Assembly: GCA_030018455.1 (NCBI GenBank)
Contig: JASEFU010000002.1
Coordinates: 1 to 64,000 of the forward strand
Reading direction: 5' to 3'
Length of the DNA stretch: 64,000 bases
Origin: Dehalococcoidia bacterium
GTDB taxonomy: Bacteria; Chloroflexota; Dehalococcoidia; DSTF01; JALHUB01
Shown here: positions 9,771 through 51,669 of the stretch, one piece after another
How the letters are laid out: each line of letters starts with the position of its first letter
Position numbering within the stretch: the first letter of the stretch is position 1
Notes under the pieces: model-generated
Database searches by the model: none
Seen by the model: only the letters and a program-made list of their open reading frames with translations
What the model was told of the DNA's origin: nothing
Made by a program: the position numbers and the translations under genes

Positions 9771-9863
9771 GGGGTCCAGGGGGCGGAGCCCCCTGGCGAG
9801 GGCCCTGGGGGTGTCCCCCAGACCCCAGAAGAGAGGCCGCGAGTCCCCGCCTCCGGCGGGGAC
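9771..9863. repeat. dispersed palindromic repeat, copy A
   Basis: Three back-to-back perfect hairpins lie here: CCAGGGGGC-GGA-GCCCCCTGG (9776-9796), CTGGGGG-TGT-CCCCCAG (9805-9821) and GTCCCCGCC-TCC-GGCGGGGAC (9843-9863). An outer pair GGGGTC (9771-9776) / GACCCC (9821-9826) closes the first two into a branched structure. The same GGGGGACACCCC and GGGGGCTCCGCCCCC words recur, inverted, in the copy near 19.8 kb. It fills the UPF0182-argD spacer. There is no U-run, so it is not a standard terminator. Confidence 0.85.
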
Positions 9864-17654: not shown

Positions 17655-17819
17655 TTCTCGTAACATTGGCGCCTATCTTCCCACCTGCCTGCCGGCAGGC
17701 AGGCCCGCCCGCAAGCGTCTACGGAATGTGGGGGACACCCCTGCCCTGCCGGCAGGCGGGCCCAGACCCCGGCAAAGGGAGACCCTCTGCACTCCCCTTT
17801 GACTCCGGCCGGGGTCGCT
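17655..17819. repeat. dispersed palindromic repeat, copy B
   Basis: This element fills most of the 268-bp spacer 17550-17817. It begins CGTAACATTGGCGCC, carries the palindromes CCTGCCTGCCGGCAGGCAGG (17685-17704) and CCTGCCGGCAGG, then GGGGGACACCCC, and ends near CCGGGGTCGCT. The order of these blocks and both ends match the copy at 24.8 kb. The remaining spacer 17550-17655 shows nothing I recognise. Confidence 0.85.
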
Positions 17820-19797: not shown

Positions 19798-19870
19798 ATC
19801 TGGGGGACACCCCTGCCTGCCGGCAGGCGGGCCCGGACCCCCGGCAGGGGGCTCCGCCCCCTGGACTCCC
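19798..19870. repeat. dispersed palindromic repeat, copy C
   Basis: The rmlA-rmlB spacer contains CTGGGGGACACCCC, then CCTGCCGGCAGG, then GGCAGGGGGCTCCGCCCCCTG and GGACTCCC. This is the reverse complement of the copy A word order (9771-9826) with the GCCTGCCGGCAGGC palindrome embedded in it, which links the two palindrome types into one family. Confidence 0.85.
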
Positions 19871-21841: not shown

Positions 21842-22783
21842 TTAGGCGAGGCGGTGGAGGCCGTGGCGATGCGCCAGCCGCACCGCCTCCCCGTACTCCT
21901 CCCCCGTGATGCGTCGGCTCAGCTCGGGGTACCGCATGGCCTGCCTGCCGGTAGGCATGGCCTTGTGCTCCGGGCGGTACTGCGCCATCACGTTCACGTA
22001 CGAGTCGGGCGATAGCTCCTCAGCGATGAAGCGCATCGCCTCCTCCGTTCCGGCGATGCCCCCGGGCAGCACGAGGTGGCGGATGATCATGCCGCGCACG
22101 GCCACGCCCCCCTCGATGACCAGGTCGCCCACCTGGCGGTGCATCTCCCGCAGCGCCGCCTTCGCCGTCGCCACGTAGTCCTTCACTAGCGAGTAGCGGC
22201 CCATGCGCTCGTCCGTGTACTTGATGTCGGGCATGTAGATGTCGAACACGCCGTCGAGCAGTCGCAGGGCGTCGAGGGAGTCGTAGCCGCCGGTGTTGTA
22301 GACGAGGGGGATCCGTAAGCCCGCCTGTCCGGCAGGCAGGCCTGCGTCGATGGCGTGCGGCAGGGCGGCGAGTATCTGCGGGACGTAGACCGTCGGGCTG
22401 ACGAAGTTGATGTTGTGGCAGCCGCGCTCCTGCAGCCAGAGCATCATGCGCGCCAGTTGCTCCGGCGTCACCTCCTCGCCTTGTCGGTCTTGCGAAATCT
22501 GCCAGTTCTGACAGTAGACGCAGGCGAGGTTGCACGACGTGAAGAAGATGGTGCCCGACCCGCCGGAGCCGACGAGCGGCGCTTCCTCGCCGAAATGCGG
22601 CCCGAACGAGGAGACGACGGCCGACGCTCCCGCACGGCAGAAGCCGCGCCTGTCGTCCGACGCGCGGTCGACGCGGCAGCGGCGCGGGCACACGCGGCAG
22701 GGCGTGCGCATTAGCTCGTACGCCTGGTCGATGCGCTCGCGGAGTCGGGCGGCGCCGAGCTCGAGGTACGAGGGCCTTCTCAT
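21842..22783 (-). CDS. radical SAM protein, PflX/PflA-like, with palindrome insertions
   Basis: A 313-aa protein of the COG1313 type. CRVCPRRCRVDR near the N terminus is an extra Cys cluster and FFTSCNLACVYCQNWQIS is the CxxxCxxC [4Fe-4S] motif. IPLVYNTGGYDSLDALRLLD and VRGMIIRHLVLPGGIAGTEE are typical family segments. Two short insertions interrupt otherwise conserved sequence: GLPAGQAG (around 22318-22346) and AMPTGRQA (21935-21962). Both are encoded by copies of the GCCTGCCGGCAGGC palindrome and keep the frame. The substrate is unknown; family members are thought to activate or modify partner proteins. Confidence 0.85.
   Translation of the reverse strand: MRRPSYLELGAARLRERIDQAYELMRTPCRVCPRRCRVDRASDDRRGFCRAGASAVVSSFGPHFGEEAPLVGSGGSGTIFFTSCNLACVYCQNWQISQDRQGEEVTPEQLARMMLWLQERGCHNINFVSPTVYVPQILAALPHAIDAGLPAGQAGLRIPLVYNTGGYDSLDALRLLDGVFDIYMPDIKYTDERMGRYSLVKDYVATAKAALREMHRQVGDLVIEGGVAVRGMIIRHLVLPGGIAGTEEAMRFIAEELSPDSYVNVMAQYRPEHKAMPTGRQAMRYPELSRRITGEEYGEAVRLAHRHGLHRLA
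21935..21962. repeat. intragenic palindrome insertion 1
   Basis: CATGGCC (21935-21941) is repeated exactly at 21956-21962, 21 bp apart, and CTGCCTGCCGGTAGG lies between. The 21-bp period equals seven codons, so the frame is kept. On the minus strand it encodes MPTGRQA between EHKA and MRYPEL, where related proteins are expected to read straight through. Confidence 0.7.
22318..22346. repeat. intragenic palindrome insertion 2
   Basis: CGCCTGTCCGGCAGGCAGGC (22322-22341) is a near-palindrome of the same family. On the minus strand it encodes LPAGQAG between AIDAG and LRIPLVYNTGG. The peptide (L)PAGxQAG is the expected translation of this repeat in this frame. Confidence 0.7.
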
Positions 22784-24824: not shown

Positions 24825-24980
24825 GGCGCCGTCGCCGTCGCCGTAACATAAACGCCCCTCTTCCCACCTGCTGCCGGCAGGCAGGCCCGCCCACTCACAG
24901 GCGTGGTTCGGAATCAGGGGGACACCCCCTGCAAACCCCCGCCAGAGGGGAGGGCCCCTCTGGACTCCCCCGGTGTCGCT
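24825..24980. repeat. dispersed palindromic repeat, copy D
   Basis: Fills the spacer 24796-25082. It starts GCCGTCGCCGTAACATAAACGCC, has CTTCCCACCTGCTGCCGGCAGGCAGGCCCGCCC in segments, then GGGGGACACCCCCTG, a GGGGAGGGCCCCTC-type hairpin, TGGACTCCCC and the end GGTGTCGCT. Block order and both ends match copy B, so the unit is about 155-165 bp. Confidence 0.85.
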
Positions 24981-25082: not shown

Positions 25083-26333
25083 ATGAGAATCGCATTCATC
25101 ATGTACCAGGGCGGAATGTACTCCGGCGGGCAGGGCATCTACACTTACTACCTTACCCGCGAGCTCGCCCGCCTCGGACACGAGGTGCACGTCATCGCCG
25201 GCCCGCCGTTCCCGCAGACGGACGACGGCGTCGTCTGCCACAACCTCTACACCCACAGCTACTGGAGCTATTTCCACTACAAGCGCCACTTCGTCTTTCA
25301 CCGTCATCCGCTGTCGCACTTCGACCCCATCAACTTCTACGAGCTCGTCTCCACCCGCGTCGCCCTCTCGTCGCTGCTGCTGACGTTCAGCATGCGCGCC
25401 TATCTCGAACTGAAGCGGCTTTCGCGAGAGCAGCCGTTCGACGTCATCCACGACAACCAGACCCTTAGCTACCCCATCCTCCTCATGAAGACCCTGGGAT
25501 GCCCAGTCGTCGCGACGCTCCATCACCCCCTCTCCGTCGACCTCCGAAACAGCATCATGCAGTCGCGGACGCTGTACGAGCGGGCGCGACGCCTGCTGTG
25601 GTTCCCCTGGATCATGCAGGAGTTCACCGCCCGCCGCGTCGACCACATCATCACCGTCTCCGAAGCGACGACGAATGCCGTCGAGCGCATGTTCCACGTC
25701 CCCCGCGAACTCATGACCCGCATCCACAACGGCATCGATACCGACACCTTTCGCCCGCTGCCGGACGTGACGGAAGCGCCCAACACCATCCTCTTCAACA
25801 CCAACTCCGAGGACCGCAATAAGGGCGCCCGCTACCTCTTCGAGGCCCTGGCGATGCTGAAGGACGAGATACCGTTCAATCTCGTCCTCATCGATAACGA
25901 TAAGAAGAGCCTGAAGCTGGCGCCGGAGCTGGTGCGAAGGTACGGGCTGAATACCCACGTCACCTTCGTCGGCCGCGTTTCCACTGAAGAGCTGGTGCAG
26001 TTCTACAACCGCGCGACAGTCCTCGTGTCGCCCTCGCTGTACGAGGGGTTCGGCCTGCCCGCCGCCGAGGCCATGTCCTGCGAGCGCGCCGTCATCGCCA
26101 CGACCGCGCCCGCCTTCCCCGAAGTGATCGAGCACGGCCGCACCGGCTGGCTTGTCCCGCCGGCGGACGCGCCCGCCCTCGCCGAAGCCATACGTATGCT
26201 GCTGGAAAACCCCGCCCTCCGGAATCGCTTGGGCAAGGCGGCGCGGCAGAGCATCATGGAACGCTTCAACTGGCGCAAGAACGCCCTCGAGGTGGTGGAG
26301 GTCTACAAGAAGGTCCGCGGCGAAGGGGGGTGA
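25083..26333 (+). CDS. family 4 glycosyltransferase, paralog 1
   Basis: A 416-aa GT-B enzyme starting MRIAFIMYQGGMYSGGQGIY. The SGGQG glycine loop is shared with two paralogs downstream. FDVIHDNQTLSYPILLMKTL lies in the acceptor domain, ILFNTNSEDRNKGARYLFEA starts the donor domain, and PSLYEGFGLPAAEAMSCERA carries the EX7E motif. The ATG at 25083 is chosen by alignment with the paralogs. It opens a run of six closely packed genes. The donor sugar is unknown; rml and gmd genes nearby make deoxyhexoses possible. Confidence 0.9.
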   Translation: MRIAFIMYQGGMYSGGQGIYTYYLTRELARLGHEVHVIAGPPFPQTDDGVVCHNLYTHSYWSYFHYKRHFVFHRHPLSHFDPINFYELVSTRVALSSLLLTFSMRAYLELKRLSREQPFDVIHDNQTLSYPILLMKTLGCPVVATLHHPLSVDLRNSIMQSRTLYERARRLLWFPWIMQEFTARRVDHIITVSEATTNAVERMFHVPRELMTRIHNGIDTDTFRPLPDVTEAPNTILFNTNSEDRNKGARYLFEALAMLKDEIPFNLVLIDNDKKSLKLAPELVRRYGLNTHVTFVGRVSTEELVQFYNRATVLVSPSLYEGFGLPAAEAMSCERAVIATTAPAFPEVIEHGRTGWLVPPADAPALAEAIRMLLENPALRNRLGKAARQSIMERFNWRKNALEVVEVYKKVRGEGG

Positions 26334-26339
26334 GCGGCC

Positions 26340-27065
26340 ACGCCCGACAACATCGTCAGCGTTGACTTCCGGCGCTATCTCCCCATCGAGAAGGGCGACC
26401 GCGTGCTCGACGTGGGCTGCGGCACCGGGCGCCACACCGTCGAAATATGCCGCTGGGAGTGCCGCGCCGTCGCCGTCGACCTCAGCGTCGACGACCTCAA
26501 GACGGCGAAGGTCTTCTGGGCGTACAAGCGGGAGTCGCGCGAGGCCCTGGGCCACGCCGATTTCGTCGCCGCCGACGCCGAGCGCCTGCCGTTCAAGGAC
26601 GCCGCCTTCGATAAGGTTGTCTGCACGGAGGTGCTCGAACACATACCGGATGACAGGGCGGGCATCGCCGAGCTGGTGCGGGTGCTCAAGCCGGGGGCGT
26701 TGATCGCCGTCAGCGTGCCGAACTACATCCCGGAGGTGGTCTTCTGGACGATATCCTGGGGATACTGGCACTCTCCCGGCGGCCACATCCGCATCTACAA
26801 GCCGCACCAGATGGCGCGCATGCTGGGCGAAAGCGGGCTCGAGCTGTACGCGGAGAGGTTGCGCCACGCCATCCAGGCTGCCTACTGGTTCATCCGCTGC
26901 ACGTTCGGCATCGATAACGAGGATTTCCCCATCACCAGGTACTTCCAGAAGTTCGTCCAGTGGCACTACCGGCGCAGGGTTCGCCTCCTCGAAAACCTGG
27001 AAGCGCTGGCAAACCCCGTCCTGGGCAAGGACCGTATCCTCTATGCCCGAAAACCGCCTTCTTGA
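26340..27065 (+). CDS. class I SAM methyltransferase, paralog 1, apparent ACG start
   Basis: Residues from PDNIVSVDFRRYLPIEKGDR through VLDVGCGTGRHTVEICRWEC are the SAM-binding motif I, followed by DFVAADAERLPFKDAAFDKV, VCTEVLEHIPDD and VLKPGALIAVSVPNYIPEVV. The paralog at 27913 begins ATG-CCC-GAT-AAC-ATC; here the matching codons are ACG-CCC-GAC-AAC-ATC, 6 nt after the in-frame TGA of the preceding gene. No ATG, GTG or TTG occurs upstream of motif I in this frame; GTG 26403 would delete the N terminus. So either ACG is the start or a base is wrong. 241 aa. Probably methylates a sugar or a glycan intermediate (inferred from neighbours). Confidence 0.75.
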   Translation, partial: TPDNIVSVDFRRYLPIEKGDRVLDVGCGTGRHTVEICRWECRAVAVDLSVDDLKTAKVFWAYKRESREALGHADFVAADAERLPFKDAAFDKVVCTEVLEHIPDDRAGIAELVRVLKPGALIAVSVPNYIPEVVFWTISWGYWHSPGGHIRIYKPHQMARMLGESGLELYAERLRHAIQAAYWFIRCTFGIDNEDFPITRYFQKFVQWHYRRRVRLLENLEALANPVLGKDRILYARKPPS

Positions 27066-27903
27066 CAGCCGTCTGCCCGCGAAGGGCGCCCACCGTCCGG
27101 AGGCCCCCACCTACCGCTACCGCGACGGCGCCCGCGGCGCCGCGCACCCACGCCTGCTCACCGTCGATTTCGGTCTGCTGCGGCTCACGCCGGGCGACCG
27201 TGTACTCGATGTCGGCTGCGGCACCGGACGCCACGTTGTCGATGCGTGCCGCCGCCCCTGCTACGTCGTCGGCGTCGACCGTGACCCCGAAGAGCTGCTC
27301 TTCTGCAAGGGCTACCTTTACTGTCTGATATGCGACGGCGAGATGCGGGCGAAGGCGAACCTCCTCGTCGGCGACGGCGACAGACTGCCGTTCGCCGACG
27401 CCTCGTTCGACCGCGTAATATGCACCGAGGTGCTGGAGCACGTGCCCGACGACGCGCTCGTCGCGCGGGAGCTGGCGCGTGTCCTGCGGCCCGGTGGGAC
27501 CATGGCGGTCAGCGTGCCTGCCTACGCCGCCGAGACGCTGTACTGGCGGCTGCTTTCGTTGCGGGGGCTGTCGATGAAAGAGCACCTGCGAGTCTACAGC
27601 GGGCGGCGTCTGAGCGCCTTGCTGAAGAGCGAGGGCCTCTTGCCATACGCCCGTCGCAGCCGTCATTCTCTGGAGAGCCTCTACTGGCTGTTCTCGTTCG
27701 CTGTTGGGGAAGGCGCCTCCGAGAGCCGGATTCCCTCCGCGTGGGAGCACTTCGTTGAGCGAAAGACGCGGGAGGACTCGCAAGCGCTCCGATTCGTCGA
27801 GCGCATCGGTGACCGCGTCCTGCCGAAGAGCTTCGTAATGTACGCGTCGAAGCCGCCCGCCGGATATGACGCATCGGCAAAGGAGAGTCGAGTCGTCCGT
27901 TGA
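27043..27903 (+). CDS. class I SAM methyltransferase, paralog 2
   Basis: A 286-aa protein overlapping the previous gene by 23 nt. GDRVLDVGCGTGRHVVDACR is motif I, ANLLVGDGDRLPFADASFDR and ICTEVLEHVPDD follow, and RVLRPGGTMAVSVPAYAAET is motif III-like. It has an extra 36-residue N-terminal segment rich in Arg and Pro. The C-terminal half keeps the HLRVYSGRRLSALLKSEGLL pattern of the other two but is more diverged. Most distinct of the three, so it may act on a different position or acceptor. Confidence 0.85.
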   Translation: MPENRLLDSRLPAKGAHRPEAPTYRYRDGARGAAHPRLLTVDFGLLRLTPGDRVLDVGCGTGRHVVDACRRPCYVVGVDRDPEELLFCKGYLYCLICDGEMRAKANLLVGDGDRLPFADASFDRVICTEVLEHVPDDALVARELARVLRPGGTMAVSVPAYAAETLYWRLLSLRGLSMKEHLRVYSGRRLSALLKSEGLLPYARRSRHSLESLYWLFSFAVGEGASESRIPSAWEHFVERKTREDSQALRFVERIGDRVLPKSFVMYASKPPAGYDASAKESRVVR

Positions 27904-27912
27904 GCAAAAGCC

Positions 27913-28668
27913 ATGCCCGATAACATCGTCACCGTTGACCTGCGGCGCCATCTTCCGCTGGAAACGGGCGATCTCGTGCTCGACGTCGGATGTGGGCCGG
28001 GCCGCCACACAAGCGAGATCTGCCTCTGGGACTGCCGCCTTCTGGGCATCGACGTTAACCGCCAGGACCTGCGGGTCGCGCGCTACCTCCTCGCCTACAA
28101 GCGGTGGGCGCATGAGGCCGTGGGTACGGGCGATTTCGTGCAGGCCGACGCCCAGCGCCTGCCGCTCAAGGACGGCCTCTTCGACAAGATCGTATGCACG
28201 GAGGTGCTGGAGCACGTCCCCGACGACCTCGCGGTCGTGCGCGAGCTGGCGCGCGTGCTGAAGCCGGGCGGTCTCCTCGCCGTCAGCGTGCCGAGCTACT
28301 GGCCGGAGACCGTCTACTCCGCGCTGTCGGCGGCCTACCGGCCTTCCGTGGGCCACGTCCGAATCTATCGACAGGGGGTAGTGGAGAAGATGCTCAGGGA
28401 GGCAGGACTCGAAGTGTACGCGCAGAGGCTGCGGCACTCGGTGCAGGCCCTGTACTACTTCATCCTCTGCGCGTTCGGCGTCGAGAACGAGAGCTTCCCC
28501 ATCACGCGCTTCTTCGGCAAGCTGGTCGACCTGCACTACGGGCTGCGGGCGCGGCCCCTGGAACGGCTCGAGGCGGCGCTTAACCTTGTGCTGGGCAAGG
28601 AGCGCGTCTTCTACGGGCGGAAACCGGCCGCGACGCCCGCATCTACAACCGAGGGGGACGCGGGTTGA
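27913..28668 (+). CDS. class I SAM methyltransferase, paralog 3
   Basis: A 251-aa protein. LVLDVGCGPGRHTSEICLWD is motif I, DFVQADAQRLPLKDGLFDKI and VCTEVLEHVPDDLAVVRELA follow. Its C-terminal half (GHVRIYRQGVVEKMLREAGL, then SFPITRFFGKLVDLHYGLRA) closely parallels paralog 1, so the two arose by duplication. Its stop overlaps the TTG start of the next glycosyltransferase (TTGA), indicating coupled translation. Confidence 0.88.
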   Translation: MPDNIVTVDLRRHLPLETGDLVLDVGCGPGRHTSEICLWDCRLLGIDVNRQDLRVARYLLAYKRWAHEAVGTGDFVQADAQRLPLKDGLFDKIVCTEVLEHVPDDLAVVRELARVLKPGGLLAVSVPSYWPETVYSALSAAYRPSVGHVRIYRQGVVEKMLREAGLEVYAQRLRHSVQALYYFILCAFGVENESFPITRFFGKLVDLHYGLRARPLERLEAALNLVLGKERVFYGRKPAATPASTTEGDAG

Positions 28669-29915
28669 GGGTCGCGCTCATCGTCTACCAGGGAAGCATG
28701 TCGTCGGGCGGACAGGGGGTGTTTGCGCACTACCTGAGCCGCGAGCTGACGCGCCTCGGCCATGAGGTGCACGTCATCGCCGGCAGGCCGTTCCCGAAGG
28801 TGGAAGCGGGGGTCAGGTTTCACGGCCTTAAGACGTACCGCGGGTGGGACTTCTGGCACGACGCCGAGGAGTACCGTTACCGCACGAACCCCCTTCTTTT
28901 CTTCCACCCCTTCAATTTCTACGAGTTCGCCGCGACCCGCATCTCGCTCGGCTCGTTGCTGTTCACCTTCAGCATGCGCGCGTATTTGAAGCTGCACGAG
29001 CTGCACCAGGAAACGCCGTTCGACATCGTCCACGACAACCAGACCCTCAGCTACGGCATCCTCCTCATGAAGAAGAAGGGGCTGCCGGTTGTCGCCAGCA
29101 TTCACCATCCCCTGACGATAGACCGCCGCAACCGGGTCGCCCAGGCGAAGGGGCCGCACGTGAAGGCGCAGGCGTACCTCTGGTTCCCCTGGGTAATGCA
29201 GGAGTTCGTCGCCCGGCGCATCGACCGCGTGCTGACGTGCTCGCACAACTCCGCGGCGTCAATACAGAACGACCTCCATCTGCCGCCGGAGAGCCTTACC
29301 GTCATCCACTACGGGGCCGACGTCGACACGTTCCGTCCGTTGGAAGACGTCGAGAAGGAGCCGGCCAGCATCCTGTTCGTCGGCGACTCGGAGGACCGCA
29401 ACAAGGGGGCGCGCTACCTGCTGGAGGCGCTGCATCCCCTGCGGCACCGCCTCCCGTTTCACCTGCGGTTCCTCGATCACCGTCCCGCCGATCAGCTCAA
29501 GCTGGTGCAGGCGCTGAAAGACAGGTACCATCTCGATAAGAACATAAGCGTGCTGCCGTACGTCGACACACAGGAGCTGGTGCGGCTCTACTGCCGCTCG
29601 CAGGTGGTGGCCTGCCCCTCGCTGTACGAGGGCTTCGGGCTGCCTGCGGTGGAGGCGATGGCCTGCGGCGTGCCTGTCGTCGCTACGAGCGCCGGCGCGC
29701 TGTCGGAGATAATCGAGGACGGCGTGACGGGCATCCTCGTCCCGCCCGGCGACCCCGACGCGCTGGGGGAGGCGCTCCGCCGCCTGCTATCCGACCCCGC
29801 GCTCTGCCGGCGGATGGGAGAGGCGGGGCGGCAGCGCGCCGTCGAGCGCTTCACCTGGCGTCTCACGGCGCAGCGAACGGCGCAGGTGTACGAAGAGGTG
29901 TTGGGAAGGCGATGA
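28665..29915 (+). CDS. family 4 glycosyltransferase, paralog 2
   Basis: A 416-aa GT-B enzyme starting with TTG 28665 (MRVALIVYQGSMSSGGQGVF). FDIVHDNQTLSYGILLMKKK, SILFVGDSEDRNKGARYLLE and PSLYEGFGLPAVEAMACGVP match paralog 1 block for block. The start overlaps the upstream methyltransferase stop and the end overlaps the next gene's ATG by 4 nt, so all are on one transcript. Identity to paralogs is high enough to infer recent family expansion; the donor and acceptor are unknown. Confidence 0.9.
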   Translation: MRVALIVYQGSMSSGGQGVFAHYLSRELTRLGHEVHVIAGRPFPKVEAGVRFHGLKTYRGWDFWHDAEEYRYRTNPLLFFHPFNFYEFAATRISLGSLLFTFSMRAYLKLHELHQETPFDIVHDNQTLSYGILLMKKKGLPVVASIHHPLTIDRRNRVAQAKGPHVKAQAYLWFPWVMQEFVARRIDRVLTCSHNSAASIQNDLHLPPESLTVIHYGADVDTFRPLEDVEKEPASILFVGDSEDRNKGARYLLEALHPLRHRLPFHLRFLDHRPADQLKLVQALKDRYHLDKNISVLPYVDTQELVRLYCRSQVVACPSLYEGFGLPAVEAMACGVPVVATSAGALSEIIEDGVTGILVPPGDPDALGEALRRLLSDPALCRRMGEAGRQRAVERFTWRLTAQRTAQVYEEVLGRR

Positions 29916-31168
29916 GGATCTGTTATCTGCTGCACCAGGGGAACATGCACTCGGGCGGCCAGGGCGTGTACCTTTGCCACGTCACGCGCGAGATGGCGGC
30001 CCTGGGGCACGAGGCGCACGTCATCGTCGGGCCGCCGCGGCCGGACACGGCGCCCGGCGTGACCGTCGATGAGCTCGAGACGTTCAGTCTGTTCGAGGTG
30101 GCGGGCACGCTCAAATTCGTCGATTTCTTCCACAGCCGCCACCCGCGCGAGTTCCTGCGACCGGTCAACTTCTACGAGCTCGGCACCACACGGTTCGGCA
30201 TGTTCTCCAACATGTCGGCGTTCAGCCTCCGCGCCTACGACCGTCTGCGCCGCGTCCAGCCCGAGCGCCGCTTCGATATCGTCCACGACGTGCAGGTGCT
30301 GGGCTACGGCACGTTGCTCATAAAGCTCTCGGGGATGCCTGTCGTCGCCAACATCCATCATCCGCTGGCGGTGGACCGCCACAATGCGGTGATGCAGGCG
30401 AGGACGGTGCGGGAGAAGCTGCGCTGGATCGTCTTCTACCCGTTCATCATGCAGCACCTCGTCATGCGCCGCGTCGACAAGATCATCACCGGCTCCCACA
30501 ACTCCGCGCTGTCGATTCAGAAGACCTTCTCGGCGCCGGCGTCGCACATCGAGGTGATCCACGACGGGGTCGACATCGACACGTTCCGTCCGCTGGAGGG
30601 GGTCGAGAAGGAGCCGAACAGCATCCTCTTCGTGGGGAATTCGGAGGACCGTAACAAGGGGGCGCGCTACCTGCTGGAAGCGCTGCACCTGCTGAGCGAC
30701 CGGCCGGACATCCGGCTGACGTTCGTCGACAATCCGAAGGGCGCGCTGAAGATGGTGCCCACGCTCGTCCGGCGCTGGGGCCTGGGCACGCGCGTGACCT
30801 TCACGGGCCGCGTTCCGACCGACGAGCTGGTGCGGCTGTACAACCGGGCGGAGATACTGGTGTCGCCTTCGGTCTACGAGGGGTTCGGGCTGCCGGCGGC
30901 GGAGGCGATGGCCTGCGGCACGCCCGTCATCGCCACGACGGCGGGGGCGTTTCCCGAGGTGGTAGCGCACGATGAGACGGGATGGCTGGTGCCGCCCGGC
31001 GACGCGCAGGCGCTCGCGGACGCCATCCGGCGCATGATGTCGGACCCTGAGTTGAGGGCGCGATTCGGGGAAGCGGGAAGGCGGCGCATACAGGAGCGCT
31101 TCACGTGGCGCGAGACCGCCCGCAAGACCGCCGCCCTGTACGAGGAGATACTGGCGCGGCGTCGTTAG
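29912..31168 (+). CDS. family 4 glycosyltransferase, paralog 3
   Basis: A 418-aa GT-B enzyme starting MRICYLLHQGNMHSGGQGVY. FDIVHDVQVLGYGTLLIKLS, SILFVGNSEDRNKGARYLLE and PSVYEGFGLPAAEAMACGTP parallel the other two. The 4-nt ATGA overlap with paralog 2 suggests direct tandem duplication. Its stop overlaps the convergent small membrane-protein gene by a few bases. Last gene of the cassette. Confidence 0.9.
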   Translation: MRICYLLHQGNMHSGGQGVYLCHVTREMAALGHEAHVIVGPPRPDTAPGVTVDELETFSLFEVAGTLKFVDFFHSRHPREFLRPVNFYELGTTRFGMFSNMSAFSLRAYDRLRRVQPERRFDIVHDVQVLGYGTLLIKLSGMPVVANIHHPLAVDRHNAVMQARTVREKLRWIVFYPFIMQHLVMRRVDKIITGSHNSALSIQKTFSAPASHIEVIHDGVDIDTFRPLEGVEKEPNSILFVGNSEDRNKGARYLLEALHLLSDRPDIRLTFVDNPKGALKMVPTLVRRWGLGTRVTFTGRVPTDELVRLYNRAEILVSPSVYEGFGLPAAEAMACGTPVIATTAGAFPEVVAHDETGWLVPPGDAQALADAIRRMMSDPELRARFGEAGRRRIQERFTWRETARKTAALYEEILARRR

Positions 31169-41994: not shown

Positions 41995-42080
41995 GTTCTG
42001 GAGGAGCGCAGGTGGGGGTTTCCCCCTCTGCCGGGCCTGCCTACTGGCAGGCAGGTCGCCCAAGCGAAACGACATGGGGG
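41995..42080. repeat. degenerate palindromic repeat, copy F
   Basis: Between trpA and the T-box promoter: GGTGGGGGTTTCCCCCTCTG forms a hairpin, then GGGCCTGCCTACTGGCAGGC (a degenerate GCCTGCCGGCAGGC palindrome), and CATGGGGGTC. It matches the family only in parts, so this is a decayed or partial copy. Confidence 0.55.
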
Positions 42081-48392: not shown

Positions 48393-49991
48393 CTACTTGT
48401 CGAGCCACATATCGTAGGTGAACAGCACCATGTTGGGCTCGACCTCCGCGTAGCCCTTCACGTAGTCCCACCGCGCCGTGAAGGCGTAGGGGGCGAAACA
48501 GCTCACGAACGGCCCGTGCCGGTCGAGCACCATGCGTGTCACCTGCAGCACCAGCTTCTGCCGCTCTTCGATGTCCGGCGTCTCCAGTATTTTGTCGAGC
48601 AGGGCATCGAGTTCAGGCTCGGGCAGATGTGTGGGCGGCTGGTTTCTGGTCCAGTTCTTGGTATGGAAGAACTGGAGAACGTATTGCTCGCTCGGGTAGG
48701 GTATCTGTTCGCGGCACATCAACTCGAAGTTCCCAGCAGACCGGTCCGCGTACCACGTGGCCGTTTCGACCGGCACCATGTTTATGGTGATGCCGGCCTC
48801 GCCCATCTGCTCCTTTATCATCGCCGCGAGGTCAGCGGGAGGGCCGGCGTAGAACTTTATGCTAAGGGTGAGGTCTTCGGCGCCCGCGGCCGACAGCAAT
48901 TGCCGCGCCTTCGCGACGTCGCGCTTGTAGCGCTCCCGCAGCTCCTCCTGGGAAAGCGACCAGAACTCCAGACCCCAGGAGACGGGGCCGCAGACCTTGC
49001 CCTCGCCGAAGGCCAGCTTTTCGATCATGGCGTCGCGGTCGATGGAGCGCTCCAGGGCCTCGCGCACGCGTATGTCCTGGAGAACAGGCGCGGTGATCTC
49101 ATGCATGAAGTACTGGAAGATCGTCATGCTCGGGTTCTTCACAAGAACGACCTTATTGCTCACGCTCGCCACGTCCTCGGCCTGTATTTTCGTGGGTGGG
49201 CCGTAGACGTCCATCTGTTGCGCCTTGAAGGCTGCCCTCAGGCTGGAGTCGTCGCCTATGATCCTCCAGGCCATGCCGTCGAGATAGGGGATCCCCTCGC
49301 GGAAGTAGATCGGGTTGCGCACCATTTCCATCGTCTCGCCTCGCGAGAGGCTCTCCACCTGGAAGGGGCCGGAGCCGAGGCCGTGCGACGCGAGGTCGCC
49401 GAACTGTTCCACCGCTTCTCTCGGCACGATGGCTGTGCGGTGTCCGCCGAACTCCGCCATGGTGTAGGCGTAGGGGCCGGTAAGCTTCACTTCGATGGTG
49501 TACGGGTCGGGCGCCGATTTGCTGGCGATCCCCGTCTTCCAGAAGGGGGTCGCACCCGCCGCCATGGAGCCGATACGGTCAAAGCTGTAGAGGACGTCGT
49601 CGGCGACAAGCTCGCGGCCGTTTACGGGCGGCAGGTCCTGGAAGCGGATGCCCTTGTGGAGCTTGAAGATGTATGTGAGGTCGTCGGGCTGCTCCATCGA
49701 CTCGGCGTGATCGAAGATGATTGTGGGCGGGCCCTTAAGGTGATATATCTCGTGCATCAGATAGCCGTAGATGTACGGCGCAAAGGCAAGTCCCAGCGTC
49801 ACGTCGGCGTGAGGGTCGATGCTGAGAGCGGGGAAGGTGCTGCCGAGGCGCAGCGTCCCGCCTCGCTTGGGGGCGCCGACAGTGGGCGTCACTTCGGACG
49901 GCGCCCCGTCCTCGTCGCCGCAGCGAAGGGCGACAAGCCCGGCGGCTCCGGCCGCTCCCGCGAGGAAAGACCGTCGTGACAAACGCATCAT
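48393..49991 (-). CDS. ABC-type peptide/nickel solute-binding protein (family 5), paralog 1
   Basis: A 532-aa extracytoplasmic protein. MMRLSRRSFLAGAAGAAGLV has a twin-arginine pattern (SRRSFLA). GGTLRLGSTFPALSIDPHAD, LTYIFKLHKGIRFQDLPPVN and DVLYSFDRIGSMAAG are typical SBP_bac_5 segments. A Cys at ALRCGDE resembles a lipid-attachment site but Arg at -1 is atypical. Start: GGAGG (50004-50000, minus strand) sits 8 nt before ATG 49991, and an upstream ATG at 50006 overlaps this ribosome site, so 49991 is used. No permease or ATPase genes are nearby. Confidence 0.88.
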   Translation of the reverse strand: MMRLSRRSFLAGAAGAAGLVALRCGDEDGAPSEVTPTVGAPKRGGTLRLGSTFPALSIDPHADVTLGLAFAPYIYGYLMHEIYHLKGPPTIIFDHAESMEQPDDLTYIFKLHKGIRFQDLPPVNGRELVADDVLYSFDRIGSMAAGATPFWKTGIASKSAPDPYTIEVKLTGPYAYTMAEFGGHRTAIVPREAVEQFGDLASHGLGSGPFQVESLSRGETMEMVRNPIYFREGIPYLDGMAWRIIGDDSSLRAAFKAQQMDVYGPPTKIQAEDVASVSNKVVLVKNPSMTIFQYFMHEITAPVLQDIRVREALERSIDRDAMIEKLAFGEGKVCGPVSWGLEFWSLSQEELRERYKRDVAKARQLLSAAGAEDLTLSIKFYAGPPADLAAMIKEQMGEAGITINMVPVETATWYADRSAGNFELMCREQIPYPSEQYVLQFFHTKNWTRNQPPTHLPEPELDALLDKILETPDIEERQKLVLQVTRMVLDRHGPFVSCFAPYAFTARWDYVKGYAEVEPNMVLFTYDMWLDK

Positions 49992-50037
49992 GGAAATGGC
50001 CTCCATCTAGACTTTCTTCGAACAGAGATCATCAGTT

Positions 50038-51669
50038 TCACTTGTCCAGCCACATATCGTACGTGTAGGCGATCATTCCCGGCTCCACGTCCTCATATCC
50101 CCGCACGTAGTTCCAGCGGGCCGTAAAGGCGTATGGTGAATAGAGATAGAGGAACGGACCGTGGCGATCCAGTATCTTGCGTGTCACCTCATGCGCCACC
50201 TTCTGCCGCTCGTAGATGTCCACCGTCACCAGTATCTTGTCCAGCAGGGCATCAATCTCCGGATCGGGCAGATGGACAGGGTTGGATTTCCGGGTCCAGT
50301 TCCTCGTGTGGTTGAATTGGAGCGGCAGGTGCTCGTTGCCGTAGGGGAGCCCGCCGCCGACCATCAGTTCGAAGTTCTGGCTCATGAGGTCGGCGACCCA
50401 GGCGCCGAGCTCCATCGGCACGAGGTTGATCGTGATGCCCGCCTCGGCCATCTGCTCCTTGATGACTGCGGCGAGATCAACATCGGAGCCGGAGGAGACG
50501 AATTTCAGGCTGAGGGTGAGGTCGCTGACGCCGGCGGCTGAAAGTAGCTGACGAGCTTTCGAAACGTCGTGCTTGTAGTGCTCTCGCAGCTCCTCCTGCG
50601 GAAGCGACCAGAACTCCAGGCCCCAGGACATCGGCCCGCTGACCTTGCCTTCGCCGAAGCATAGCCTCTCGATTATCATGTCGCGGTCGAGGGAGAGGTC
50701 CAGCGCCTCGCGGACGCGTATATCCTGGAGCGCCGGCACCTTGATCTCGTTCAGATTGATCATGAAGATGAAGAGGCTGGGCGATTTGACCAGCGTGATA
50801 TCCTTGCTGTAGCTCGCTACATCATCGGCCTGAATCTTGGTAGGCGGACTATACACATCCAGCTGCTGCGCCTTGAAGGCAGCCCTCAAGGCGGAATCGT
50901 TGGCGATTATCCGCCAGGACATGCCGTCCAAATAAGGGATCCCCTCTCTGTAGTAAATCGGGTTGCGGGTCATCTCCATCGTCTCGCCGCGGGAGAGGCT
51001 CGCCACCTGGAACGGGCCCGACCCGAGGCCGTGCGACTTGAGGTCGCCGAACTCCTCAACCGCCTCCTTTGCCACAATGGCCGTGCGGATCCCGCCGAAT
51101 TCCTCCATGGTGTAGGCATAGGGGCCGGTGAGGCGCACCTCAAATGTGTACGGGTCGGGCGCGGACTTGCTCTCCATGCCCTCCGTCCAGAAGGGGGTTG
51201 CCTGCGTTGAGGCGATCCTGTCGAAGCTGTACAGCACGTCCTCGGCGACGAGCTCGCGGCCGTTGGCGGGCGGCAAGTCCTGGAAGCGGACGCCCCGGCG
51301 CATCCGGAAGACGTAGGTGAGGTCGTCCGGCTGCTCCAGCGACTCGGCATGGTCAAAGACGAGGTAAGGGGCGCCCTCCAGGGGCACTATCTCGTGCAGC
51401 AGGTAGCCGTAGATGAAACAGATGAAGGCCAGGCCGAGCGTAACTTCGGTGTGGGGATCGATGCTGACCGCGGCAACGGTGCTCCCGAGGTGGTACACTC
51501 CCCCCCGTTTGGGAGCGCCGCTCGTGTGAGGAGCCGCCTGCTCTTCCTGATCATCGGTGCAGCGCAGGGCCGCCAGCGACGTAACGCCGGCCGCTGCCGT
51601 CGCCAGCTTCAGCGCCTGCCGCCGCGAGAGTCGTGTGTGCGCGAATAGCGGGCCGTCGGTCAGAGTCAT
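50038..51669 (-). CDS. ABC-type peptide/nickel solute-binding protein (family 5), paralog 2
   Basis: A 543-aa protein with LSRRQALKLATAAAGVTSLA as Tat-type signal and the same AALRC Cys motif. The mature part follows paralog 1 almost block by block (GAPKRGGVYHLGSTVAAVSI, LTYVFRMRRGVRFQDLPPAN, ending AYTYDMWLDK), so the pair is a recent tandem duplication. ATG 51669 is preferred to an ATG 33 nt upstream because AAGGA lies 10 nt before it. Ligand unknown. Confidence 0.88.
   Translation of the reverse strand: MTLTDGPLFAHTRLSRRQALKLATAAAGVTSLAALRCTDDQEEQAAPHTSGAPKRGGVYHLGSTVAAVSIDPHTEVTLGLAFICFIYGYLLHEIVPLEGAPYLVFDHAESLEQPDDLTYVFRMRRGVRFQDLPPANGRELVAEDVLYSFDRIASTQATPFWTEGMESKSAPDPYTFEVRLTGPYAYTMEEFGGIRTAIVAKEAVEEFGDLKSHGLGSGPFQVASLSRGETMEMTRNPIYYREGIPYLDGMSWRIIANDSALRAAFKAQQLDVYSPPTKIQADDVASYSKDITLVKSPSLFIFMINLNEIKVPALQDIRVREALDLSLDRDMIIERLCFGEGKVSGPMSWGLEFWSLPQEELREHYKHDVSKARQLLSAAGVSDLTLSLKFVSSGSDVDLAAVIKEQMAEAGITINLVPMELGAWVADLMSQNFELMVGGGLPYGNEHLPLQFNHTRNWTRKSNPVHLPDPEIDALLDKILVTVDIYERQKVAHEVTRKILDRHGPFLYLYSPYAFTARWNYVRGYEDVEPGMIAYTYDMWLDK

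Follow-up and report, generated by a model that had tools for sequence, protein, structure and literature searches.

The small dispersed repeats (SDRs) of filamentous cyanobacteria, reportedly described by Elhai et al. in 2008 (cited in PMC3116915), are said to be palindromic or hairpin-forming units of 21–27 nt that are confined to one cyanobacterial group; their empty sites point to precise insertion, and the units are nested within other repeats as well as within short tandem ones. REP and REPIN sequences are thought to move through single-stranded hairpins, and palindromes that lie in frame within proteins have been regarded as peculiar to rickettsiae and to REP-rich genomes. The Rickettsia palindromic elements (RPEs), described as about 150 bp long, as forming ten families and as found in rickettsiae only, lie in frame inside functional genes, where they add a peptide at tolerated sites (PMC3733652, PMC10969869); RPE-4 and RPE-6 are CGTC REPs (PMC3733652). 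REPs are short palindromes that are mostly intergenic and occasionally fall in open reading frames, including DnaE2 and DNA repair genes (PMC3733652).

Here we analyse a 64,000-nt stretch of a Dehalococcoidia bacterium genome (the window), in which a radical SAM gene carries two seven-residue inserts. These two peptides are probably translated copies of P, a very small, non-autonomous, mobile palindrome of 20 nt that is mobilised in trans and whose intragenic survivors have been filtered. By analogy, P appears to work like the cyanobacterial SDRs and, within proteins, like the Rickettsia RPEs. As with SDRs, P is dispersed, measures 20–21 nt (the lower edge of their size class), has exact empty sites for several copies, is nested in other repeats and, in a few IMG/VR copies, lies in tandem-looking tracts; it differs, in a comparison made with SDRs by description, in occurring in Dehalococcoidia and in contigs of GC 0.38–0.68, and in the prominence of its in-frame intragenic copies. 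As with RPEs, P lies in frame in conserved genes and is absent from their homologues, but its 20–21-nt unit adds seven residues, whereas RPEs are recognized by a length of ~100–150 bp and an RPE consensus.

Results

Two seven-codon inserts in a radical SAM gene

The host gene (21842..22783, minus strand) is an open frame of 313 aa with a pyruvate formate-lyase (PFL)-activase-like fold: in a structure-model comparison the predicted radical SAM fold resembles pyruvate formate-lyase activating enzyme structures. The best NCBIfam match, AmmeMemoRadiSam radical SAM TIGR04337, reaches 40 bits against a cut-off of 220, and family function is left unassigned. Insert 1 (21938..21958, minus strand) is a degenerate copy of P spanning 21 nt, the seven codons ATG CCT ACC GGC AGG CAG GCC (MPTGRQA), with a 20-nt core (21940-21959) that has two mismatches to P. 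Insert 2 (22319..22339, minus strand; GCCTGTCCGGCAGGC) is a variant of P whose centre holds one additional base, again 21 nt and seven codons (LPAGQAG); its exact core, CCTGTCCGGCAGG, occurs at only two places genome-wide. The original prediction had placed two copies of GCCTGCCGGCAGGC in this one coding sequence; there are indeed two inserts, but neither contains exact GCCTGCCGGCAGGC, insert 1 differing from it by one mismatch (GCCTGCCGGTAGGC). Its reading of the insert 1 boundaries agrees with the coordinates, a direct repeat CATGGCC (21935-21941 and 21956-21962) bracketing the insert with a period of exactly 21, so that the insertion equals seven codons.

We aligned the protein with 65 homologues, drawn both from its own class and from further phyla; none of them has either insert, and family sequence reads through both insertion points, as had been proposed. 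Between anchors, the window protein spans 31 aa at each site. The homologues span 24 aa: all 65 do so at site 2, as do 61 of the 65 at site 1, where the remaining four carry a small unrelated indel. At 69% identity, the sequence from Dehalococcoidia bacterium SM23_28_2 is the closest relative, and it too has neither insert. The proposed loop location likewise holds in an AlphaFold2 model of good confidence (mean pLDDT 89.8), which places both inserts in predicted loops: residues 149-155 form coil between a helix (131-146) and a strand (160-164), and residues 276-282 are the lowest-confidence stretch of the model.

A dispersed family, mostly outside proteins

P, the perfect 20-nt palindrome CCTGCCTGCCGGCAGGCAGG, is the core of a dispersed family whose copies we gathered by pattern search of the 2.38 Mb source genome. 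A 14-mer allowing at most one mismatch finds 37 sites against 2 for a reversed control, and the 20-mer allowing at most three mismatches finds 42 against 0, with 0.41 expected under a first-order model; insert 2 is not among the 42 because of its extra base. Most copies lie outside proteins, between genes, within longer repeats or in extra tRNA copies; one intergenic copy in the window, with two mismatches (42036..42055, plus strand), lies downstream of a TrpA-like open frame, at a distance of ~50 nt. Confident genes hold only 4 of ~40 own-genome sites, even though coding sequence should make up most of the genome: two in the radical SAM gene, one in a CobA-HemD fusion (L071) and one in the error-prone DNA polymerase DnaE2 (L225; NF004225 above cut-off). 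We discounted matches to the 14-mer in VirB4-like (L070), NuoF-like (L226) and L076 proteins as coincidental, the residues looking native to those families.

Filled and empty sites

Many intergenic copies of P are carried by a longer intergenic repeat, H (CTTCCCACCC.CCCGCC ... GGGGGACACCCCCAGACCCCCGGCAGAGGGG), whose own copies are either empty or hold P at site a, site b, both, or site c. In the window, the H copy at 17677..17790 (plus strand) is occupied at both sites, by exact P at site a (17684-17703) and by a 21-nt variant of P at site b (~17740-17760). An H fragment at 19802..19870 (plus strand) has P at site b (19812-19831), and in a third copy at 24860..24970 (plus strand) a 19-nt variant of P occupies site a (24867-24885) while site b is empty. 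Cutting 20 nt from site a of the first copy joins CTTCCCA^CCCGCCCGC. Excision of 20 nt leaves a string that runs uninterrupted in other H copies, both at site a (L003 against L078; L083 against L240) and at site c (L078 against several). Duplication of H, and not repeated insertion, may be what multiplied P at sites a and b.

Related genomes supply further filled and empty pairs. In genomes G093, G016 and G107, P is embedded in repeats of the TCATTGCGAG^CGAAGCGAAGC or TCATCCTGAG^ type; a TCATTGCGAG^CGAAGCGAAGCAATC repeat is filled with P in G093 and empty in G289, an exact 20-nt difference, and besides this one G093 site the G016 site also has an exact empty form, in L319. Among the loci examined, no exact full-length empty copy was found for several further insertions (both tRNA-Leu-like inserts, L259, L304 and L312), for which the joined sequences resemble the expected empty sequence. 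At testable non-coding insertions exactly 20 nt are added, with no separate target duplication, and no parent transposon was found for P; it is therefore not classed here with MITEs, which are marked by duplication of the target site and by terminal inverted repeats matching those of a known transposon. The short palindrome, precise insertion and genome-wide dispersal of the original prediction are thus borne out.

H belongs with related GGGGTCC...GGAGCCCCC elements (window 9771-9819, 17677-17790, 19802-19870, 24860-24970 and 42010-42060) to a separate, longer intergenic family of the source genome that often hosts P. The window also contains diverged tandem duplications of long stretches, in three copies at 25319-31029 and two at 48395-51415, with ~60-86% identity.

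P in tRNA-like genes

In the source genome the 3' half of tRNA-Met has been duplicated with P inside it, and removal of 20 nt leaves exactly the real tRNA-Met sequence (L067, L104). Two tandem tRNA-Leu(TAG)-like copies (L007 1438-1868; G000:C2 ~326.03-326.46 kb) each carry two P-like inserts, one at the end of the D-loop and one at the junction of variable arm and T-stem; their putative empty sequence comes from comparison with tRNA-Leu(TAA). We considered that P might interrupt the sole tRNA-Leu(UAG) gene and rejected this: a normal tRNA-Leu(TAG) lies at C1:117011, and the P-bearing genes are therefore extra copies. Among IMG/VR sequences, an exact P lies in the variable loop of a tRNA-Met recognised by ARAGORN (L291) and another in the D-loop of a tRNA-Lys-like gene (L298 488-620; 3300035537_000177).

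Other features accompany these genes. The duplicated tRNA-Met 3' half at L067 2570-2660 holds a second, different short insert (CCTGCCCGCCTGTGGAGGG) as well as P. A truncated GIY-YIG-like open frame is repeated between the tandem tRNA-Leu(TAG)-like copies, and in L298 a GIY-YIG-like open frame directly follows the P-bearing tRNA-Lys-like gene, the same pairing of tRNA and GIY-YIG as in the source genome.

Length and frame of intragenic copies

PAGRQ-like peptides recur, as had been anticipated, in further proteins and genomes. Genome G142 has in-frame P in a YbaK-like protein, in DapF and in a third open frame, with gaps against solved structures of ~8 residues in the YbaK-like protein and 6-7 in DapF; in G016, P lies inside a GAF-domain-like protein. 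Intragenic inserts are 21 nt where length is well measured (both radical SAM inserts and DnaE2, which is exactly 7 aa longer than its Thermomicrobium homologue), and the other genes are consistent with this; the HemD insert is 6-7 aa relative to three of four homologues and is not proven to be 7, because only distant homologues were compared. All eight intragenic copies read LPAGRQ-like, in one frame, which has a chance of 5e-4 if frames are equally likely, a result that could be somewhat biased in that coding frames in the other genomes were assigned by codon composition and family resemblance.

The element had been proposed to preserve frame by its own nature, which the evidence here does not support. 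The native unit is 20 nt, and among insertions that can be tested the non-coding ones measure 20 nt and only the intragenic survivors 21 nt (length variants among the non-coding copies are one of 19 nt and some of 21 nt, the latter notably at H site b); in addition, a decayed RHS-like gene holds a copy of 20 or 23 nt that breaks the frame. Given this difference in length, together with the single LPAGRQ-like frame, frame preservation looks to be imposed by natural selection rather than built into P. Alternatively, the shared frame might arise from a target preference for codon-phased GC-rich sites. No step shown here accounts for intragenic copies being 1 nt longer than non-coding ones.

Distribution beyond the source genome

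Of 393 Dehalococcoidia genomes, 15 contain exact P, spread over seven families at 1-31 copies each, and the other 378 lack it. In IMG/VR it occurs in 33 stretches with GC from 0.38 to 0.68, compared with 1, 0 and 0 stretches for three shuffled palindromes of equal composition. Exact P was not found in phage and plasmid collections, the best plasmid matches agreeing at 17-19 of 20 bases, and no paper mentioning the sequence or the peptide turned up in a literature search. A few IMG/VR copies lie within tandem-looking tracts (L288, L276, L290).

These counts bear on whether a dispersed unit moves at all. Replication slippage or template switching at GC-rich quasi-palindromes could have produced the inserts locally, and the CATGGCC repeat with its 21-nt period around insert 1 is what such a process might leave. 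Yet the inserts belong to a family with tens of members at unrelated positions, and unrelated genomes across that whole GC range share the exact 20-mer. A local process would not yield an identical sequence each time, and the first-order and shuffled-palindrome controls argue against an effect of composition. We regard local origin as exceedingly improbable.

Within the genus g91, P is found at the same place in different species (G266 and G142, in a region 98% identical, and three species elsewhere). Such shared positions are hard to reconcile with an assembly or library artefact, as are the exactness and frame compatibility of the insertions, the mutual divergence of copies and the origin of the records in many projects; to this account, which could draw on the metagenomic derivation of the source genome and most P-bearing records and on the lack of exact P in the phage and plasmid collections, we give almost no credence.

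In three g91 species (L307, L311, L317), an aldehyde dehydrogenase gene has P ahead of its ribosome-binding site and after a promoter-like region; this P is unchanged while its adjoining flanks differ by 18-20 nt indels. This conservation in a 5' UTR, with the intergenic majority of copies, is what would be expected if P were a selected functional signal (a terminator, an mRNA hairpin or a protein-binding site) copied or kept where useful, its intragenic copies being by-products. That account is nonetheless very unlikely: P also sits in extra tRNA copies, other repeats and coding regions with no common function apparent, it is missing from 378 of 393 relatives, and exact 20-nt empty sites denote insertion rather than the gradual evolution of a motif.

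Relation to REPs and candidate mobilisers

The gene for Y1_Tnp, a domain considered here as a candidate mobiliser, is present in 12 of 15 P-bearing genomes and in 99 of the 378 others (Fisher p=3e-5, ignoring shared ancestry and genome size); it was not found in three P-bearing genomes, which are only 82-87% complete. No P was found at any of 22 Y1 transposase loci from P-bearing genomes with flanks of ~1 kb. The source genome has a RAYT gene (L117 ~1300-1900) flanked by its own REP, GTAGGGCGGGCATCYTGCCCGCC and variants.

P could on this basis be a true REP moved by a RAYT, as proposed for GTAG/CGTC REPs: it is a short palindrome, mainly intergenic and sometimes in open reading frames, it inserts without a separate target duplication, Y1_Tnp is enriched among its carriers, and its presence in DnaE2 matches an earlier report of REPs in that gene (PMC3733652). 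Against this, P copies have no adjacent GTAG or CGTC tag or foot, the flanks of copies in the source genome and its relatives vary, and the source-genome RAYT is accompanied by a different palindrome; REP families usually adjoin their own RAYT and are lineage-specific, whereas P has no adjacent RAYT, stays away from the Y1 loci searched and is identical across families, a perfectly symmetric 20-mer without the asymmetric foot of REPs. By the two features tested, tag and RAYT linkage, P is not a REP, and we consider the REP account as a whole unlikely.

Discussion

We return to P as a palindrome mobilised in trans, a mode of movement that we infer from its dispersal, its exact empty sites and its patchy presence. 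In the mechanism we propose, an enzyme acting in trans would insert ~20 nt into GC-rich or hairpin-forming DNA, and insertions within genes would almost always be lost. The survivors would be those that lie in a surface loop, read in the LPAGRQ frame and, through one added base, measure 21 nt or seven codons, a combination that would leave the enzyme intact; a benefit of the inserts to the host protein is an assumption that is not needed. A Y1/HUH-type transposase acting on single-stranded hairpins is our leading guess for the mobiliser, but a tentative one, held down by an association that ignores ancestry, three genomes without a match, the lack of a P-flanked Y1 locus and a RAYT with a REP of its own; we rate a route through RNA, or some other one, about equally likely.

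It is possible, though we would not yet bet on it, that P ranks among the smallest transposable units known, the same 20-nt sequence being moved by a trans-acting enzyme both horizontally, between unrelated and mostly uncultivated lineages, and within genomes, into intergenic repeats, tRNA loops and, in frame, housekeeping proteins. What sets P apart is a unit of only 20 nt whose exact sequence is common to distant genomes and whose intragenic survivors show a clear filter on length and frame. To our knowledge, the enzyme that moves very small elements has been an open question since SDRs were described, and a fixed 20-mer offers a simple reporter for finding it. For annotators there is a caution: an LPAGRQ-type peptide in a protein predicted from a metagenome can be an insertion and need not be a conserved motif.
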